DNA of 64,000 bases. Source: Bacteroidota bacterium. Lineage in GTDB: Bacteria; Bacteroidota; Bacteroidia; Chitinophagales; Chitinophagaceae. The notes beneath the pieces are model-generated. The model made no database searches and was not told the DNA's origin. It saw nothing but the letters and a program-made list of their open reading frames with translations. Both the position numbers and the translations under genes were made by a program. The DNA lies in the NCBI GenBank assembly GCA_024640225.1, contig JAHEFK010000013.1:8686-72685 (forward strand), in the 5' to 3' direction. Numbering within the stretch: the first letter of the stretch is position 1; the number at the start of each line of letters is the position of its first letter. Shown one piece after another: positions 606 to 8,683 of this stretch.

Positions 606-980
606 ATGAGCCACAAAAATACAAAAACCGGTGCAGTTGGAGAGCAATTAGCCAAAGAATATTTAATAAAGAAAGGCTATATAATTCTTGCCTCCAATTG
701 GAGAGCCCAACATAAAGAAATAGATATTATAGCCAAACATAAAGACGTGTTGGTGTTTGTAGAAGTAAAAACAAGGCGCAGCACCAAATTTGGATTCCCA
801 GAGGAAGCGGTGACTACTAAAAAATGGCAACTTCTTTTTTTAGCGGCTCAAGCCTTTATAGAACAGTATACCAATTACGAGCGTATACAGTTTGACATAA
901 TAAGTGTAGCTTTAAAAAATAAACAAATGAAGGATTCGGAAACAGAAATCGTCCATTATGAAGATGCTTATTATGGATAA
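606..980 (+). CDS. YraN family protein (UPF0102), endonuclease-like fold
   Basis: This 124-residue protein matches the YraN family in length and layout: GAVGEQLAKEYL near residue 10, an N-W-R element near 31, then EIDIIAKH and VFVEVKTR at about residues 38-57. The D-(x)n-E-x-K arrangement is the PD-(D/E)xK nuclease core also seen in Holliday-junction resolvases. The cellular role of YraN is not settled. It starts 21 bases from the divergent isomerase gene and ends 20 bases before the sigma-factor gene, so it could be transcribed with that operon. Confidence 0.85.
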   Translation: MSHKNTKTGAVGEQLAKEYLIKKGYIILASNWRAQHKEIDIIAKHKDVLVFVEVKTRRSTKFGFPEEAVTTKKWQLLFLAAQAFIEQYTNYERIQFDIISVALKNKQMKDSETEIVHYEDAYYG

Positions 981-1000
981 TTGCAAAAAGTGGAAATAGA

Positions 1001-1519
1001 TTGGATGTAGCACAACTTTTCAATCAATACAAGGATATGGTCTATAACCTTGCACTTCATTATGTTCAAAACAGAGAGGAAGCAGAAGAGATATGTCAAG
1101 ATGTTTTTGTGAATGTTCATTTTGCCAAAGATAATTTTAGAAACGAAGCGAGTATAAAAACTTGGATTTACCGTATCACAATTAATAAATCGCTGGACTA
1201 TTTAAAGGCAAAAAAAACAAAAAAACGATGGGCTGCCATTTTATCGTTAGACTTTTTTCAAGATCATGCAATAGCCTCCAAAGAAGTGCAGCACCCGGGC
1301 ATGGTATTAGAACAAAAGGAAGCTTTACAATTAATTTTTAACTGTTTAAACCAACTCCCTAATCATCAAAAAACTATAATTATTCTTTCAAAAATCGAAC
1401 AAAAAACCATTAAAGAAATTGCAGACATTCTTAACTTGAGTACCAAATCAGTAGAATCGCATATGCATAGAGCTAAAAAAAACTTAGGCCAATTGCTGCA
1501 ACAAGAAGGCCGTATTTAA
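1001..1519 (+). CDS. ECF-type RNA polymerase sigma factor, TTG start
   Basis: The 172-residue protein has sigma region 2 at about residues 8-75 (NREEAEEICQDVFVNV, then IKTWIYRITINKSLDYLK) and region 4 at about 110-165 (LPNHQKTIIILSKIEQ, IKEIADILNLSTKSVESHMHRA helix-turn-helix). It should direct core RNA polymerase to a small regulon. There is no ATG before region 2, so TTG at 1001 is the best start; AAGTGGAAA lies just before it. It heads a run of closely spaced or overlapping genes to 5289, so it most likely controls that operon, including itself. Confidence 0.88.
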   Translation: MDVAQLFNQYKDMVYNLALHYVQNREEAEEICQDVFVNVHFAKDNFRNEASIKTWIYRITINKSLDYLKAKKTKKRWAAILSLDFFQDHAIASKEVQHPGMVLEQKEALQLIFNCLNQLPNHQKTIIILSKIEQKTIKEIADILNLSTKSVESHMHRAKKNLGQLLQQEGRI

Positions 1520-1541
1520 GAACCGCTTCAACGCAACCCTT

Positions 1542-1793
1542 ATGAACATAGACTTACAACCACTCGCCCAAATACAACAACAAGCAGCACCCGATGACTT
1601 GTACCCAAAAATCATGGAGCGCCTTCAACAAAAAAAAACGCAACAAGAGCAGCTACAGCAAAGGATCTATAGTATAGTGTGTATAGGCTTATTAGCTTTT
1701 AGTTTATTTTACACCGCCAATAACTTGTACGCATCAACAGCAGATGCTCCCTACAGTAACTTATTCCAAACCAGCTCATCGCTTTATAAATAA
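1542..1793 (+). CDS. Small single-pass membrane protein, candidate anti-sigma factor
   Basis: This 83-residue protein matches no family I recognise. The first 40 residues are Gln-rich and polar, a likely helix or coiled coil (MERLQQKKTQQEQLQQR); residues 43-63 form one membrane segment; about 20 residues follow, probably in the periplasm. Lying 22 bases after an ECF sigma gene and sharing a base with the next gene (TAATG), it sits where anti-sigma factors usually sit. A cytoplasmic helix plus one membrane span fits that job, but no zinc-binding HxxxCxxC motif is present. Function is inferred from position only. Confidence 0.6.
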   Translation: MNIDLQPLAQIQQQAAPDDLYPKIMERLQQKKTQQEQLQQRIYSIVCIGLLAFSLFYTANNLYASTADAPYSNLFQTSSSLYK

Positions 1794-2248
1794 TGACCAT
1801 GCAAAATAACAATCGCTTACAATGGATTATTTTGGGATTGATTATTTCCAATCTCCTACTGTTGACGTTTATCCTCATCAATAAACCACAGCATCCAAAG
1901 ATGGATTTCAAAGCCTATATCATTTCTTCATTAGACTTTAAGGAAGCTCAAATTCAGGCTTTTGAAAAAGAGATTCAACATCATATTACAACTATGGATC
2001 AATTGGAGAAACAAATTGTTGCAAACAAAATTCAATTGTATAGCCTATGCGCGCATCCTCAAACTGAAGCTAACAAGCAAGTGCTCCTGCATAACTTGGG
2101 CAATTTACAGGAACAAGTAGAAGCTAATTTCATGGCTCATTTCAGCGCTATCCGTAGATTATGCACAGCTCCTCAACAAGCAAAATTTGATAGTCTAATC
2201 TATAGCTTTCCAAAATTTTTTAGCCGACCAAAGCGACCTAGAAAATGA
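1793..2248 (+). CDS. Spy/CpxP-like periplasmic heavy-metal sensor family protein
   Basis: The 151-residue protein has one N-terminal membrane anchor (about residues 10-30) followed by a helical periplasmic domain with two long amphipathic stretches (about 42-75 and 85-130). This resembles the Spy/CpxP/ZraP-type sensors that Bacteroidota often encode just after ECF sigma factors. Such proteins bind metals or unfolded proteins and feed a signal to a sigma/anti-sigma pair. The usual LTxxQ signature is weak here (FKEAQIQAFEKE takes its place). Stop and start codons overlap with both neighbours (TAATG; ATGA), implying translational coupling. Confidence 0.65.
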   Translation: MTMQNNNRLQWIILGLIISNLLLLTFILINKPQHPKMDFKAYIISSLDFKEAQIQAFEKEIQHHITTMDQLEKQIVANKIQLYSLCAHPQTEANKQVLLHNLGNLQEQVEANFMAHFSAIRRLCTAPQQAKFDSLIYSFPKFFSRPKRPRK

Positions 2249-2880
2249 TAAAGGCCTTTTTATTTTTATTGTGTTTGTGTAGCTATTTACAAAGCTTTAG
2301 TCAACAAATACTGTTCAGCACTAAAGCTAGCACTACTCCGTATGTATATTTAGATCAGGATACGGTGGAAATAAAAGTTTTAAAATACTATATCACCAAG
2401 CTTCAGTTATGGAAGCATCAACAATTGGTATATACCGACCAACGAGGTGCTTATTTAATTGATGGCCTTCGCGATACAACCTATTATTTGGCCAATAAAA
2501 AACCATTTGACTCGCTTAGTTTTACTTTAGGAATTGATAGTGCTATTCAACGAAAAGGCGCCTTGGGAAAGGATCTAGATCCTACAAATGGTATGTATTG
2601 GGCTTGGCAAAGTGGCTATATCCATTTCAAACTTGAAACGCATTCCTCCAACAACAAACCCTTACAATTGCATATAGGTGGCTATGCATATCCTTTCAAC
2701 ACCCTTCAACGATTGGGCTTTAAAGTAAGTAATACTAAAAAAATCAGCATTCAATTGGAGCTCTTAAAACTGTTGCAACAGATCAATAGTCAAAAGGTTT
2801 TCAAAATCATGTCGCCCAGCGCTGAAGCCGTTTTGATTGCTTCTTTTATTGCTCAATCCTTTTCAATAAGCAATGAATAA
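2245..2880 (+). CDS. MbnP family copper-binding protein
   Basis: A signal peptide (residues 1-19, ending SFSQ) precedes a beta-rich domain. The family signature LDPTNGMYWAWQSGYIHF lies at residues 111-128, followed by LHIGGY at 142-147. In methanotroph MbnP, a periplasmic protein, Cu(I) binding depends on a tryptophan oxidised to kynurenine by the di-heme partner MbnH. Here W119 and W121 are the candidate tryptophans and H127 and H143 candidate ligands; that assignment is inference. The gene overlaps its upstream neighbour by 4 bases and the MbnH-like gene by 8, so the pair is surely co-expressed. Confidence 0.85.
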   Translation: MIKAFLFLLCLCSYLQSFSQQILFSTKASTTPYVYLDQDTVEIKVLKYYITKLQLWKHQQLVYTDQRGAYLIDGLRDTTYYLANKKPFDSLSFTLGIDSAIQRKGALGKDLDPTNGMYWAWQSGYIHFKLETHSSNNKPLQLHIGGYAYPFNTLQRLGFKVSNTKKISIQLELLKLLQQINSQKVFKIMSPSAEAVLIASFIAQSFSISNE

Positions 2881-3892
2881 ACTAGGATGCATACTACTAA
2901 TTTGTTTGGGTTGGCTATGGTTATGTAGTCATCAAAGCGCTACACCCTTATTTCCAAAACCATTTCCTAAACCGATATATGATCTTGCTAGCAATCCCTT
3001 GCAAAAAGATGTCATTGATTTAGGTAGGCGTTTTTTCTACGACCCCATACTATCTAAAAACAATACTATTTCCTGTGCCAGTTGCCACAGTCCTTATAAT
3101 GCATTTGCGCATGTAGATCACGCATTAAGTCACGGTATCTACGATCGTATTGGCTTTAGAAATGCCCCGGCATTATTTAATGTAGCTTGGGCTCCCTACT
3201 TTATGCAAGACGGTGCCATTCATCATTTAGATATGCAAGCATTAGCACCGATTAGCGACTCCAATGAAATGCAAGAAACCTTTGACCATGTTATCTCAAA
3301 AATAAATGCGGATACCTCTTATAAAATTCTTTTTAAAAAAGTATATCATCAACCCCAAATCAGTGGAGCTCAATTCTTAAAAGCAATGGCGCAATTTCTG
3401 CTAAGTTTAGTAAGTGCTGAAAGCAAATACGACAGTGTAATGCGTGGTAAAGCATCCTTTAGCCAACAAGAAAAAAAGGGCTACCTACTCTTTCAAAAAC
3501 ATTGTGCTAATTGCCATCAAGAGCCCTTATTTACCAATTATACTTTTGCAAACAATGGCATTGGGGCAGATCAGCACTTGCATGATTTAGGAAGATATCG
3601 AGTAACAAAAGACTCCAATGATCTTTTAAAATTTAAAGTGCCCTCTTTGCGCAATATCGAATTTACAGCGCCTTATATGCATGATGGTCGTTTTGCTTCG
3701 CTAAAAGATGTACTACGGTTTTATACTAGTCCACACCCCACGCAAGCCAATACCGATAATAGGGTAAAACATCCTTTCCCCTTAAGCGCAAATGACCAAG
3801 TGGATATCCTTGCTTTTTTGTTATGCCTAAGCGATAAGCATTTTATTTTTAACCCCCAGCATGCTTACCCAAAAAGTATGCTTAAAAATTAA
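2873..3892 (+). CDS. Di-heme cytochrome c peroxidase/MauG family enzyme (MbnH-like)
   Basis: This 339-residue secreted protein has two haem c sites, CASCH at residues 68-72 and CANCH at 211-215, in the layout of bacterial di-heme peroxidases and MauG. A tryptophan between the haems (W106, in NVAWAPYF) could bridge electrons, and the region near YMHDGRF resembles the family's distal ligand loop. Overlap with the MbnP-like gene argues for MbnH-type work (oxidising a partner tryptophan) over plain peroxide removal. The N-terminus is a signal or membrane anchor (residues 1-20). A classical cytochrome c peroxidase is the alternative. Confidence 0.87.
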   Translation: MNKLGCILLICLGWLWLCSHQSATPLFPKPFPKPIYDLASNPLQKDVIDLGRRFFYDPILSKNNTISCASCHSPYNAFAHVDHALSHGIYDRIGFRNAPALFNVAWAPYFMQDGAIHHLDMQALAPISDSNEMQETFDHVISKINADTSYKILFKKVYHQPQISGAQFLKAMAQFLLSLVSAESKYDSVMRGKASFSQQEKKGYLLFQKHCANCHQEPLFTNYTFANNGIGADQHLHDLGRYRVTKDSNDLLKFKVPSLRNIEFTAPYMHDGRFASLKDVLRFYTSPHPTQANTDNRVKHPFPLSANDQVDILAFLLCLSDKHFIFNPQHAYPKSMLKN

Positions 3893-3951
3893 TAACTTTA
3901 ATTGCATGCAGGCCATCACGAATTCGTCTAACAAAGTTCAATCATACCAAT

Positions 3952-5289
3952 ATGAAAAAACAATTATTTGCTTGTCTTAGCATACTACTTGCCCTTCAAG
4001 CAAGTGCTCAAACCAATCCGATTATAAATGCTTGGTTGCGTAATACTACCAATATTTTAGGTCGCCATTATGTGAGTGGCAATTCCACCGCTATTCAGGA
4101 TGCTACGCCTGCAAATGTGCAAACGGTGCAATACTCTAATACTAGTGTATATATAAGCACCTCGGGAATTCCGGCTTATGTTACCGGACCATTTTTAGAT
4201 GGCAACCCTTCTTTAGCAAGCAATCAAAATGCAATTTTTAAATTTCCTTTAACCCCAACTCAAAATACGGGTACTCCAATAGCTACTACTGGGGGAAATA
4301 TTGGTGTGTTTATAAATGGTGTAGCTCTTTTCGATTATCGAGATGGCGTTTCTTGGAACAATGCACAACAAAAATTATGTGGCGGCCCCATACAACCCCC
4401 TTGCATGGGCGACGGCTTATGGAACCGAGATGCTGTTGTGGCAGAGCGTGTAGGATTTGATTGTGCGAAAGGCCATCCGGCGATGGGCAATTATCATCAT
4501 CATCAAAATCCAAGTGCATTTAAATTAGATTTGAATATTATCTCTACGGTTTGTAATCTTTATGATGCAGATGGCTTATATGTAATTGATAGCAGCAAAC
4601 ATTCCCCATTAATTGGTTATGCCTATGATGGCTTCCCAATTTATGGAGCGTATGCCTATAAAAACTTAGATGCTACAGGGGGCATCACTCGCATGAAATC
4701 TTCTTATCGATTAAAAACTAGTATGACTAGCAGAACCAATGGACCAGCTATCAACAGCACCTATCCTTTAGGTTTGTTTAAAGAAGATTATGAATATATA
4801 GCGCCTAGTGCGGGTCAAACCGATTATTTAGATGAGCACAATGGTCGTATTTGTAAAACACCCGAATATCCGAATGGAATCTATTGCTATTTTGCAACCG
4901 TAGATGCTAATTGGAACTCAGCGTATCCTTATGTAGTTGGACCAACTTTTTACGGCACTAAAGTAGCAACTAAAGTAACAAGCATAACGGAATCTACGAC
5001 TACGTATAACCCAACAACCAACATTACTAGCACGCTAAGCAATGCGGATGTTTCGGTGTTCCCAAATCCAAGTTCCGATTTACTAGTTGTGCAAATGAAC
5101 GATCTCACTAAAACAGCTGTTGAACTAAACCTATATGACCTACAAGGAAAATTAATGGATCGAAAAATTATTTATCCTGGTACAACAATCGCATATTTTG
5201 ATACCAGAACTTATTATGCAGGTATTTACATACTGCAGATTGTTCAAGCAGACAAAACCCTTACCCAACAAATTAGCCTTCAAAAATAA
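3952..5289 (+). CDS. YHYH domain protein with T9SS C-terminal sorting domain
   Basis: A 445-residue exported protein: signal peptide at residues 1-19 (ending ASAQ), a YHYH domain centred on GNYHHHQNP near residue 182 and a second conserved stretch LIGYAYDGFPIYGAYA near 220, then a type A sorting domain from about residue 362 (VFPNPSSDLL to the C-terminus). YHYH proteins have no proven function; the His cluster and genomic habit suggest metal binding. The T9SS tail predicts export across the outer membrane and surface attachment or release. It follows the di-heme gene by 59 bases and probably ends the operon at the hairpin after it. Confidence 0.85.
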   Translation: MKKQLFACLSILLALQASAQTNPIINAWLRNTTNILGRHYVSGNSTAIQDATPANVQTVQYSNTSVYISTSGIPAYVTGPFLDGNPSLASNQNAIFKFPLTPTQNTGTPIATTGGNIGVFINGVALFDYRDGVSWNNAQQKLCGGPIQPPCMGDGLWNRDAVVAERVGFDCAKGHPAMGNYHHHQNPSAFKLDLNIISTVCNLYDADGLYVIDSSKHSPLIGYAYDGFPIYGAYAYKNLDATGGITRMKSSYRLKTSMTSRTNGPAINSTYPLGLFKEDYEYIAPSAGQTDYLDEHNGRICKTPEYPNGIYCYFATVDANWNSAYPYVVGPTFYGTKVATKVTSITESTTTYNPTTNITSTLSNADVSVFPNPSSDLLVVQMNDLTKTAVELNLYDLQGKLMDRKIIYPGTTIAYFDTRTYYAGIYILQIVQADKTLTQQISLQK

Positions 5290-5303
5290 GTTGACCAAGC
5301 ATG

Positions 5304-5336
5304 AAAAAAGCCCCGAATGACTCGGGGCTTTTTTTA
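5304..5336. terminator. Two-way Rho-independent terminator between the YHYH gene and guaB
   Basis: The arms AAGCCCCGA and TCGGGGCTT close a short loop and are flanked by A6 on the left and T7 on the right. It lies 15 bases after one stop codon and 16 bases from the other, so it can end both transcripts. Confidence 0.92.
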
Positions 5337-5351
5337 TACCTATAGGATATT

Positions 5352-6821
5352 TTATCTGCTATAATTTGGCGCTTCTTTAGTAATCACAATATCATGCGGA
5401 TGGCTCTCTGCCATGGAAGCACTTGTTATACGAACAAATTGCGCTTTGTCTTGTAAGGTTTTAATATCCTTTGCACCACAATAGCCCATACCCGCTCTTA
5501 AGCCACCAACAAATTGTTGAATCACTTCACTTAAAGTGCCTTTGTAAGGTACACGACCTACGATTCCTTCTGGAACTAATTTTTTAATATCGGCTTCTAC
5601 ATCTTGGAAATAACGATCGCTGGAGCCTTCTTTCATAGCTTCTACCGAACCCATACCTCTATACGATTTGAATTTTCTACCTTCGTAAATGATTGTTTCG
5701 CCTGGACTTTCTTCAGTACCTGCAAAAATAGAACCCGCCATAACGGTTGACGCTCCGGCAACTAAGGCTTTTACCATATCACCCGTGTAACGAATACCGC
5801 CATCTGCAATCACTGGAATGCCTCTTTTCTTTAATACCGTTGCTGCTTCTATTACGGCACTTAATTGTGGTACACCTGCACCGGTAACAACGCGAGTAGT
5901 ACAAATAGAACCTGGTCCAACGCCCACTTTCACCGCATCAGCACCAGCATCTGCTAGGGCTTTAGCACCCGCCGCTGTAGCTACATTGCCGGCAATCACT
6001 TGTACGTCTTTAAATGATTTTTTTACGAGCTTCACCATATCCAATACACCTTTAGAGTGGCCATGAGCACTATCTAAAGTAATCACATCTACCCCTGCAT
6101 TTTTCAATGCTGCAACTCGATCTAAGGTGTCGGCCGTAATACCTACTGCAGCACCTACCAATAAGCGACCAAATTGGTCTTTGCAAGCAAATGGATGGCT
6201 TTTTAAATGTATGATATCTCTAAAAGTGATGAGCCCTTTTAATTTTCCAGCTTTATCAACGATCGGTAATTTCTCAATTTTGTATTGTTCTAATATCCCC
6301 TCGGCCTTTTGCATGGTAGTACCAATAGGTGCAACAACCAATTTATCTTTGGTCATTACTTCTTTAATTTTCTTTTTAGGATTTTTTTCGAAACGTAAAT
6401 CTCTATTAGTAAGAATGCCCACTAATTTATTAGCAGCATCTACGATGGGAATACCCCCAATTTTGTGATCACGCATTAAACGAAGGGCATCGCCCACAGA
6501 TGCTTCTGGTGATAAGGTAATGGGATCTATAATTAAACCACTCTCTTGACGCTTTACCTTTCTAACTAACTCGGCTTGCTTTTCAATACTCATATTCTTA
6601 TGCAGAATACCAATACCACCCTCTCTAGCCAATGCAATAGCCAAGCGGTCTTCGGTAACCGTGTCCATAGCTGCAGAAACCATGGGCATATTAATCTTGA
6701 TATCTTTGGTTAAATAAGACTGAATATTGACCTCTCTAGGAAGCACTTCAGAATATGCAGGGACTAGTAATACATCATCGAATGTAAGCCCTTCTCCGTA
6801 AAATTTAGACGTTGTTGCCAT
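5352..6821 (-). CDS. guaB: IMP dehydrogenase
   Basis: 489 residues, full family length. It oxidises IMP to XMP with NAD+, the committed step to guanine nucleotides. [13 protein letters not shown] opens the barrel, two CBS domains sit at about residues 98-206 (regulatory insertion), and the catalytic cysteine loop GPGSICTT places the nucleophile at C307. The reading frame extends two codons further to a TTG (6825-6827), but that codon lies inside a TATCTTTG -7 box, so the ATG at 6821 is chosen; the message may then be leaderless. It is divergent from the acyl-CoA synthetase gene. Confidence 0.97.
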
Positions 6822-6824
6822 GTG

Positions 6825-6832
6825 CAAAGATA
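6825..6832 (-). promoter_or_regulatory. Candidate -7 promoter element of guaB
   Basis: On the minus strand the sequence is TATCTTTG, a perfect match to the Bacteroidota -7 consensus TAnnTTTG. It ends only 3 bases before the guaB ATG. No clear TTG-type -33 box is seen at the usual spacing. Confidence 0.55.
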
Positions 6833-6910
6833 AAACGACTTTTTTTTAAAACCATAAACTCTAAAAAAAAAATAAAAAATGTATTATTTTACATGAATTA
6901 AAAAAATAAT

Positions 6911-8683
6911 ATGGGTAGAAAACTCTTTGATATAGTTGCTGATCGCAAGCTAAAAAATCCAAATTCTATTTTATTGGCTGCCAAAGAAGCAGGTACTTGG
7001 CGCACCTATAATGCCCAAGAAGTATGGGATACAGCTACCGCTATGGCCTATAGCTTACAAGAAAAGGGCATTCAGTACAAAAAGAGTTTAGACCAAGTAG
7101 ATACGGTAGCCATCATATCTGGCAACCGACCAGAATGGATCATAACCGATTTGGCTACCCAATTATCGGGCGGTGTACTTACCCCTATTTACCCAACTGT
7201 GAGCGTTGCAGAACTAGCTTATATTTTTAATGAAGCACAAGTAAAAATTGTATTCGTAGCCAATCAGGAGCTGTACGACCGATTTTTACCAGCATTTAAA
7301 TTAGTACCCAGCCTACAGTTTATTTATTCCTATGATACTGTTGAGGGCGTAGCGCATTGGTCAAATTTAATTTCAAGTGAAAATCACATTAGTAAGGAAG
7401 CAATCGCTAAAATTGATGATGAAAGTTTAGCAACAATTATTTATACCTCCGGCACCACAGGCAACCCTAAAGGTGTGATGCTTAGTCATAAAAATATTGT
7501 TAGCAATATTGAAGACAGCATTCGATACTTCTCCTTTACGGATGGGATAGATAAGAAAGCACTGAGCTTTTTACCGCTCAATCACATCTTTGAGCGCATG
7601 TGCACCTATCTTTATTTTGAAAAGGGTATCTCTATTTATTATGCCGAAAGCATGGAAACCATTGGTGATAATTTAAAAGAAGTGAAGCCTGTGGTATTTA
7701 CTACCGTACCTAGACTCTTAGAGAAAGTTTATGAGAAAATTTACAATAAGGGCTTAGAATTGAACGGTATCAAAAGAGCTTTATTCTTCTGGGCACTTCG
7801 TTTGGGCGATCAGTTTGATCATAGAGAACAAAAATCATGGTGGTACACGATGCAATTAAAGCTTGCTAATAAATTAATTTTTAGCAAATGGAGAGCAGCG
7901 TTAGGGGGCGAAGTCATTGCCATTGTTACTGGCTCTGCGGCATGTCAGGAGCGCCTCATTCGTGTTTTCACTGCAGCAAAATTAACTATCATGGAAGGCT
8001 ATGGCTTGACCGAAACTTCACCGGTGGTATCTGTAAACACATTCGAAAGTTATGGAAGAAAATATGGTACGGTAGGAGTTGTTATTCCTTCTGTGGAAGT
8101 GAAACTTGCGGAGGACAATGAAATCCTTTGTAAAGGTCCGAATGTCATGCTCGGTTATTATAAACAACCCGCATTAACAGCAGAGGTTTTAAAAGACGGG
8201 TGGTTTTATACGGGTGATATCGGCACTTTCGTTGAAAACAACACGATCCTTAAATTAACGGATCGAAAGAAAGAAATGTTCAAAACTTCGGGCGGTAAAT
8301 ATGTGGCACCGCAAGTGATAGAAAATAAGTTTAAAGAATCCCCATTTATCGAACAGATCATGGTAATTGGTGCGGATAGAAAATTCATCAGCGCTCTTAT
8401 TGTTCCGTCCTTAACGAATTTGAAAAATTACTTTGAAGATCATGGATTAGCATGGCCAGTATCAACTGCTGAATTACTAAAACACGAGCGTGTACAAAAA
8501 TTAATGGATCAACAACTGCATAAATTCAACGAGCATTTCAACCATACTGAGCAAATTAAAAAGTATGCCTTACTCCCTCAAGAATGGACTGTTGATACGG
8601 GTGAAATCACCCCAACATTAAAGTTGAAAAGGAAGGTAATTATGGAAAAATATTGCCAAGAAATTGAGGCTATTTATCAATAA
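6911..8683 (+). CDS. Long-chain acyl-CoA synthetase (AMP-forming)
   Basis: 590 residues, typical of Bacteroidota long-chain fatty acyl-CoA ligases. It activates fatty acids to acyl-CoA through an acyl-adenylate. The phosphate-binding loop IIYTSGTTGNPKGVM is at residues 176-190, YGLTETSP near 362, GWFYTGDIG near 431 and the hinge/lysine region LTDRKKEMFKTSGGK near 448, all intact. It is likely membrane-associated in the cytoplasm. It stands alone with 86 bases before odhB; the A/T-rich 89-base gap to divergent guaB must hold its promoter. Confidence 0.93.
   Translation: MGRKLFDIVADRKLKNPNSILLAAKEAGTWRTYNAQEVWDTATAMAYSLQEKGIQYKKSLDQVDTVAIISGNRPEWIITDLATQLSGGVLTPIYPTVSVAELAYIFNEAQVKIVFVANQELYDRFLPAFKLVPSLQFIYSYDTVEGVAHWSNLISSENHISKEAIAKIDDESLATIIYTSGTTGNPKGVMLSHKNIVSNIEDSIRYFSFTDGIDKKALSFLPLNHIFERMCTYLYFEKGISIYYAESMETIGDNLKEVKPVVFTTVPRLLEKVYEKIYNKGLELNGIKRALFFWALRLGDQFDHREQKSWWYTMQLKLANKLIFSKWRAALGGEVIAIVTGSAACQERLIRVFTAAKLTIMEGYGLTETSPVVSVNTFESYGRKYGTVGVVIPSVEVKLAEDNEILCKGPNVMLGYYKQPALTAEVLKDGWFYTGDIGTFVENNTILKLTDRKKEMFKTSGGKYVAPQVIENKFKESPFIEQIMVIGADRKFISALIVPSLTNLKNYFEDHGLAWPVSTAELLKHERVQKLMDQQLHKFNEHFNHTEQIKKYALLPQEWTVDTGEITPTLKLKRKVIMEKYCQEIEAIYQ

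Follow-up and report, generated by a model that had tools for sequence, protein, structure and literature searches.

The window, by which we mean the whole 64,000-nucleotide stretch analyzed here (Bacteroidota bacterium of the family Chitinophagaceae, assembly GCA_024640225.1, contig JAHEFK010000013.1, positions 8,686 to 72,685 of the forward strand), carries at 1001-5289 a six-gene unit. It encodes, in order, an extracytoplasmic function (ECF) sigma factor, a small membrane protein, a predicted periplasmic sensor, an MbnP family protein, an MbnH-like di-heme enzyme, and a YHYH protein with a sorting domain of the type IX secretion system (T9SS). The features are as follows.

1001-1519, + strand: ECF sigma factor with a proposed CnrH-like role; TTG start; Pfam Sigma70_r2 E 2e-15, Sigma70_r4_2 E 7e-17
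1542-1793, + strand: small protein of 83 amino acids with one transmembrane segment; proposed CnrY-like anti-sigma factor, from position and topology
1793-2248, + strand: predicted CnrX/NccX-fold periplasmic sensor of 151 amino acids with an N-terminal transmembrane segment; conserved His64, His116, and Cys124
2245-2880, + strand: MbnP family protein; PF20243 110.8 bits; signal-peptide-like hydrophobic N terminus
2873-3892, + strand: MbnH/MauG-like di-heme enzyme; CCP_MauG 167 bits
3952-5289, + strand: YHYH protein with a T9SS type A C-terminal domain; PF14240 209 bits; Por_Secre_tail 35 bits; signal-peptide-like N terminus
5301-5337, strand not assigned: terminator-like hairpin with A/T-rich flanks; -23.2 kcal/mol, z -6.7 versus shuffles

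An initial sequence-only reading of this DNA had described six head-to-tail genes whose overlaps, where present, measure 1, 4, and 8 bases. The open reading frame coordinates agree; the remaining neighbors are separated by 22 bases (sigma factor to transmembrane gene) and 59 bases (MbnH to YHYH). The earlier view of a single operon-like unit that carries an ECF sigma factor of its own (105 bits against the NCBIfam ECF superfamily model, cutoff 42.9) and an envelope sensor is supported. The unit is closed by the hairpin, which sits between the YHYH gene and a convergent IMPDH gene. Folding detected this hairpin and a consensus terminator scan missed it, probably because its T run lies inside the stem. 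The source genome comprises 1.85 Mb in 43 contigs and is 96.5% complete; a search for a plasmid location gave no match.

We gathered MbnP relatives in the genus, family, and order and examined their surroundings, and we scanned a YHYH alignment against the genome contigs. Several YHYH matches in the MbnP surroundings that came through the T9SS tail alone were dropped. The scan gave 80 named YHYH loci, which by their record titles come from Chitinophagales, Flavobacteriales, Crocinitomicaceae, Saprospiraceae, and Ignavibacteria metagenome-assembled genomes, among others. MbnP or MbnH was present in 66 of them. The order of sigma factor, one-transmembrane protein, CnrX-like sensor, MbnP, MbnH, and YHYH on one strand, on whose conservation in relatives the sequence-only reading had staked its case, was kept in 28 loci, including the window, as counted by a strict script; these span about 4.3 to 4.9 kb each. 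The total reaches about 39, near-duplicates (L077/L079 and L154/L159) included, when five loci from a later sensor search (L249 and L251 to L254) are added together with loci whose transmembrane gene was not recognized by the search model (L080, L089, L127, L145, L153, and L245; L127 has one additional gene ahead of YHYH). L147 would be a 29th locus, but there YHYH precedes MbnP. Judged by record titles, the conserved-order loci span many genera and several orders. No conserved seventh gene was found around them, and because the order is kept while the flanks differ between genera, we regard it as a unit and not as shared synteny. Of the 46 full-length YHYH genes in the family, at least 29 have an MbnP gene no more than about 4 kb away, where chance would give well below one (hand count; hand counts here and below may be off by a few). 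The conservation of the six-gene order is far beyond chance.

The front half of the operon, as modeled, resembles a CnrH-CnrY-CnrX cassette. The third gene had first been taken for a Spy/CpxP-like sensor; its assignment as an envelope sensor held, and fold comparison refined it to CnrX/NccX-like. By sequence, the window copy matched Pfam Metal_resist weakly (E 0.087), and 19 of 40 homologs matched the same family (best 2.8e-9); a profile search returned both NccX (4clv, 7e-4) and Spy (5e-4). An AlphaFold (AF2) model built from the 40-homolog alignment, with a mean predicted local distance difference test score (pLDDT) of 92.5, consists of a single helix at the N terminus plus a bundle of helices. 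When this model was compared to the PDB with Foldseek, ranks 1 to 10 were all CnrX or NccX at probability 1.00, with E-values of 0.012-0.041 and a template modeling score (TM-score) by target of 0.59-0.77. In the alignment to NccX, His116 falls on the His of the HxxxM motif (His119 in CnrX), Met123 is replaced by Ile120, and the HxxxH pair (His42/His46) is absent. Thus, within what we take to be the CnrX metal ligand set (H42, H46, E63, H119, and M123), the equivalent of His119 alone is clearly kept. Since the set as a whole is not, the sensor would work like CnrX without belonging to the Ni/Co branch. His64, His116, and Cys124 are instead retained in most of 111 sensors, in every cargo class, and look like a metal site.

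The earlier “small membrane protein” is likewise a membrane protein, now refined to a CnrY-type topology: exactly one hydrophobic segment was found in 26 of 26 copies (window plus relatives), mostly at residues ~40-60. It matched no Pfam family, and in most loci its gene was recognized with the sigma gene on one side and the CnrX-like gene on the other. From position and topology, we propose that it is a CnrY-like anti-sigma factor. The sigma gene was recognized upstream of the sensor in all 30 of the order-sample loci read first and in nearly every locus overall. The well-known CnrYXH system of Cupriavidus metallidurans, a Ni/Co switch, and NccYXH likewise join an ECF sigma factor to a small one-transmembrane protein and a CnrX-fold protein with an N-terminal transmembrane segment. 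They differ from the present unit in gene order and in output, which is a resistance-nodulation-division efflux pump there and MbnP, MbnH, and YHYH here. For the sigma gene at 1001 of the window and 33 other sigma genes, mechanically called starts were 18 TTG, 4 GTG, and 12 ATG; the mostly non-ATG starts may reflect weak translation or wrongly called starts. A CGCAAG...CATC pair was tried as a promoter motif and rejected, as it occurred in only a few related loci and also in the background.

The PF20243 score of MbnP is well above the gathering cutoff of 27 bits, and its score against the equivalog model TIGR04052 is 34.4 bits, below the cutoff of 140. For MbnH, the best NCBIfam model was TIGR04039 (190 bits, cutoff 363). 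With the equivalog cutoffs unreached, we refer to the proteins as MbnP family and MbnH-like, not as certified equivalogs. Met117, Trp119-x-Trp121, and His143 of MbnP are invariant in 99 WxW-bearing homologs, and we take M117, W119, W121, and H143 to be the copper site. In the MbnP described in 2021, copper is reportedly bound by His and Met beside a kynurenine derived from the first tryptophan. Sequence and profile searches of the PDB with MbnP gave no match. The MbnH-like enzyme matched PDB 6e1c (E 5e-35) and has two CxxCH motifs (C68/C71/H72 and C211/C214/H215). Its Tyr284, present in 102 of 103 homologs, aligns with the Met of the bacterial cytochrome c peroxidases (bCcPs) 3o5c and 4aal, the position occupied by Tyr in MauG. 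L100 has three tandem MbnP-like genes (5510-8080), of which two lack WxW, and a further MbnP/MbnH pair, with no YHYH, lies elsewhere in the source genome (L094, G000:C21).

The pair resembles those of Methylosinus trichosporium OB3b and others in having a Met/WxW/His MbnP next to a di-heme enzyme of the MauG type, in which Tyr takes the column of the bCcP Met. It differs in the unreached TIGR04052/TIGR04039 cutoffs, in a Trp112 replaced within the genus, in its dedicated sigma switch and YHYH partner, and in the lack of methanobactin genes. Membership of the operon in a methanobactin cluster was rejected, since the 96.5% complete source genome holds no MbnB family gene (PF05114); the sequence-only reading had likewise seen no MbnA, MbnB, or MbnC in this DNA. 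This setting alone is no novelty: MbnP/MbnH outside methanobactin operons were reported in 2013 (PMC3621798), and PF20243 is present in 255 of 299 genomes of the order.

The sixth protein is predicted T9SS cargo, as first thought. Its tail scored 37.4 bits against TIGR04183 (cutoff 23), and in the predicted model (pLDDT 85.6) the C-terminal domain gave convincing PDB fold matches, including the T9SS C-terminal domains 8qb1 and 8glk; the core gave no fold match in the PDB. The T9SS component SprA is encoded in the source genome (E 1e-160), which makes such export plausible. His175, His182, His184, His217, Asp226, Asp279, and Asp294 are invariant across 60 YHYH sequences. The YHYH proteins of jumbo phages have been predicted to be metal-dependent hydrolases, with a metal site predicted for the phage domain (PMC7824862), and by sequence the invariant set is consistent with that site. 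The phage proteins share the Pfam domain (PF14240), the conserved His/Asp set reported for it, and, for cyanophage proteins (some annotated as baseplate), 32-36% identity, whereas the present protein would be exported cargo of a chromosomal operon. Near an MbnP/MbnH pair in another genome, a YHYH fragment with 3 stop codons (G212:C4:6674-6931) is perhaps a decaying YHYH gene.

We next read the neighborhoods of about 62 cassettes from an order-wide sample of 150 genomes, chosen by the sensor alone. By hand count, about 28 (about 45%) had MbnP/MbnH and/or YHYH as immediate downstream cargo: MbnP/MbnH in about 17 and YHYH directly, with no MbnP, in about 11. This sample, drawn by the sensor only and independent of the search for the six-gene order, ties YHYH and MbnP/MbnH together by way of a common regulator. 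The remaining cassettes precede T9SS-tailed metallophosphatase pairs, redoxins, or no obvious cargo. The metallophosphatase pairs were seen at L232 and L247, and likewise, by gene size, at L243 and L244. In variant loci, multicopper oxidases lie beside MbnH and YHYH: those of L121 and L072 are Cu-oxidases with T9SS tails by Pfam, those of L126 and L172 were recognized by the sequence start only, and that of L143 was inferred from a gene of ~580 amino acids in the corresponding place. Sulfatase genes also adjoin YHYH in variant loci, and redoxin genes occur in several. By analogy, these relatives and companions (multicopper oxidase, sulfatase, metallophosphatases, and phage baseplate proteins) suggest that YHYH is a metal-dependent enzyme on the cell surface, no less strongly than the surface metal carrier first imagined.

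We believe it fairly probable that the six genes form a self-contained envelope metal-response operon. The CnrX-like periplasmic protein would bind a metal ion through its conserved His/His/Cys residues, with a soft ion such as Cu(I) probable, and would then loosen the one-transmembrane CnrY-like protein from the ECF sigma factor, which, once freed, would transcribe its own operon. The MbnH-like enzyme would oxidize the first WxW tryptophan of periplasmic MbnP, probably to kynurenine, and the modified MbnP would then bind copper. YHYH would reach the cell surface through the T9SS and act there as a metal-dependent enzyme or binder. The proposed copper link draws on the invariant Met/WxW/His of MbnP and on the T9SS-tailed multicopper oxidases of variant loci.

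Several observations weigh against this model. Cassettes beside surface phosphatases or no obvious cargo imply that the stimulus need not be copper, and with the CnrX ligands His42/His46 and Met123 missing, the metal of the sensor may differ. For CnrX, Foldseek gave no E-value better than 0.012, though the probability is 1.00. No convincing shared promoter motif was found upstream of 32 sigma genes. The Trp112 column of MbnH, which belongs to the inter-heme region, is Trp in 92 of 103 relatives (89%) and Gln in the window copy; across three species of the genus it is Gln or Leu, with the nearby Trp106 kept, which leaves the activity of this copy uncertain. Finally, in a third species of the genus (L066, G299:C33, 1560-1760), the sigma gene, the transmembrane gene, and sensor residues 1-107 are deleted at this place. 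The last 44 sensor residues (66% identity) directly follow a UPF0102 gene there, and the MbnP, MbnH, and YHYH reading frames are intact; the switch is apparently dispensable while the output genes stay, although an assembly error is possible.

Among other explanations, YHYH could be a surface metal-dependent hydrolase, one of a group of secreted enzymes (phosphatases, sulfatases, and oxidases) controlled by switches of the CnrX type, with MbnP/MbnH loading or protecting such enzymes. The cassettes upstream of T9SS-tailed metallophosphatases or of YHYH alone, the adjoining sulfatase and multicopper oxidase genes, and the jumbo-phage prediction together with the cyanophage matches all point this way. 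No catalytic residues or fold were identified in YHYH, its core being without a PDB match, and we hold this version to be doubtful; it is compatible with the metal-response operon rather than opposed to it.

We consider unlikely a copper starvation system in which proteins at the surface and in the periplasm collect copper and copper represses the operon. CnrX-type sensors classically work in the opposite sense, activating their sigma factor when metal is in excess. No recurring TonB-dependent transporter family, and no conserved flanking family of any kind, was seen next to the operon. Such a system would have models in methanotrophs, where CorA/CorB and MopE/SACCP are surface copper systems: CorA and MopE are copper-repressible kynurenine-type copper proteins with di-heme cytochrome c peroxidase partners (PMC3912023 and PMC3621798), and the surface-export domain of YHYH would suit the same purpose. 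However, MbnP belongs to another family, without marked similarity to CorA or MopE (PMC3621798), and no CnrX-type switch is described for these systems. Least probable, and in our view improbable, is a cassette sensing general envelope or oxidative stress with MbnH as a peroxidase and an incidental metal link, for which the profile similarity of the sensor to Spy and LTXXQ proteins, the redoxin genes of several variant loci, and the CCP_MauG family of MbnH speak, but against which stand top fold matches to CnrX/NccX rather than Spy, conserved His/His/Cys residues that resemble a metal site, a tyrosine (Tyr284) in the bCcP Met column, a trait of MauG-type enzymes, and MbnP adjoining MbnH throughout the conserved unit.

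On the side of known systems, similar kynurenine copper proteins that have di-heme partners were described before (PMC3912023). Our literature search, made mostly without subscription papers, found no description joining a CnrX-type switch, MbnP/MbnH, and YHYH. This link outside methane-eating bacteria is apparently undescribed, a novelty that is provisional given the limited coverage. We tentatively put forward, as a possibility short of an even chance, a wider version in which a His/His/Cys switch of the CnrX type, perhaps responding to Cu(I), controls both a kynurenine copper protein and a new-fold surface YHYH metalloenzyme that receives or uses that copper, as a widespread and undescribed Bacteroidota system. 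MbnP/MbnH pairs abound in Bacteroidota, and a dedicated metal-sensor sigma switch with a recurrent surface partner offers a testable handle on what they do outside methanotrophs, as finding the inducing metal would bring the function of the pair within reach. The same handle would open up the uncharacterized YHYH domain, which ranges from the baseplates of phages to proteins of the bacterial surface. The six-gene unit occurs in many environmental Bacteroidota.

Some loci carry further genes. L127 has a bacteriorhodopsin-like gene between MbnH and YHYH (5107-5838, by Pfam in this locus only), and L175 has a gene of similar size. At L157, a single open reading frame of 1212 amino acids (977-4615) between the CnrX-like sensor and YHYH fuses a multicopper oxidase to a sulfatase with a T9SS tail. 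In the source genome itself, one multicopper oxidase gene lies near a redoxin gene (L259, G000:C14).

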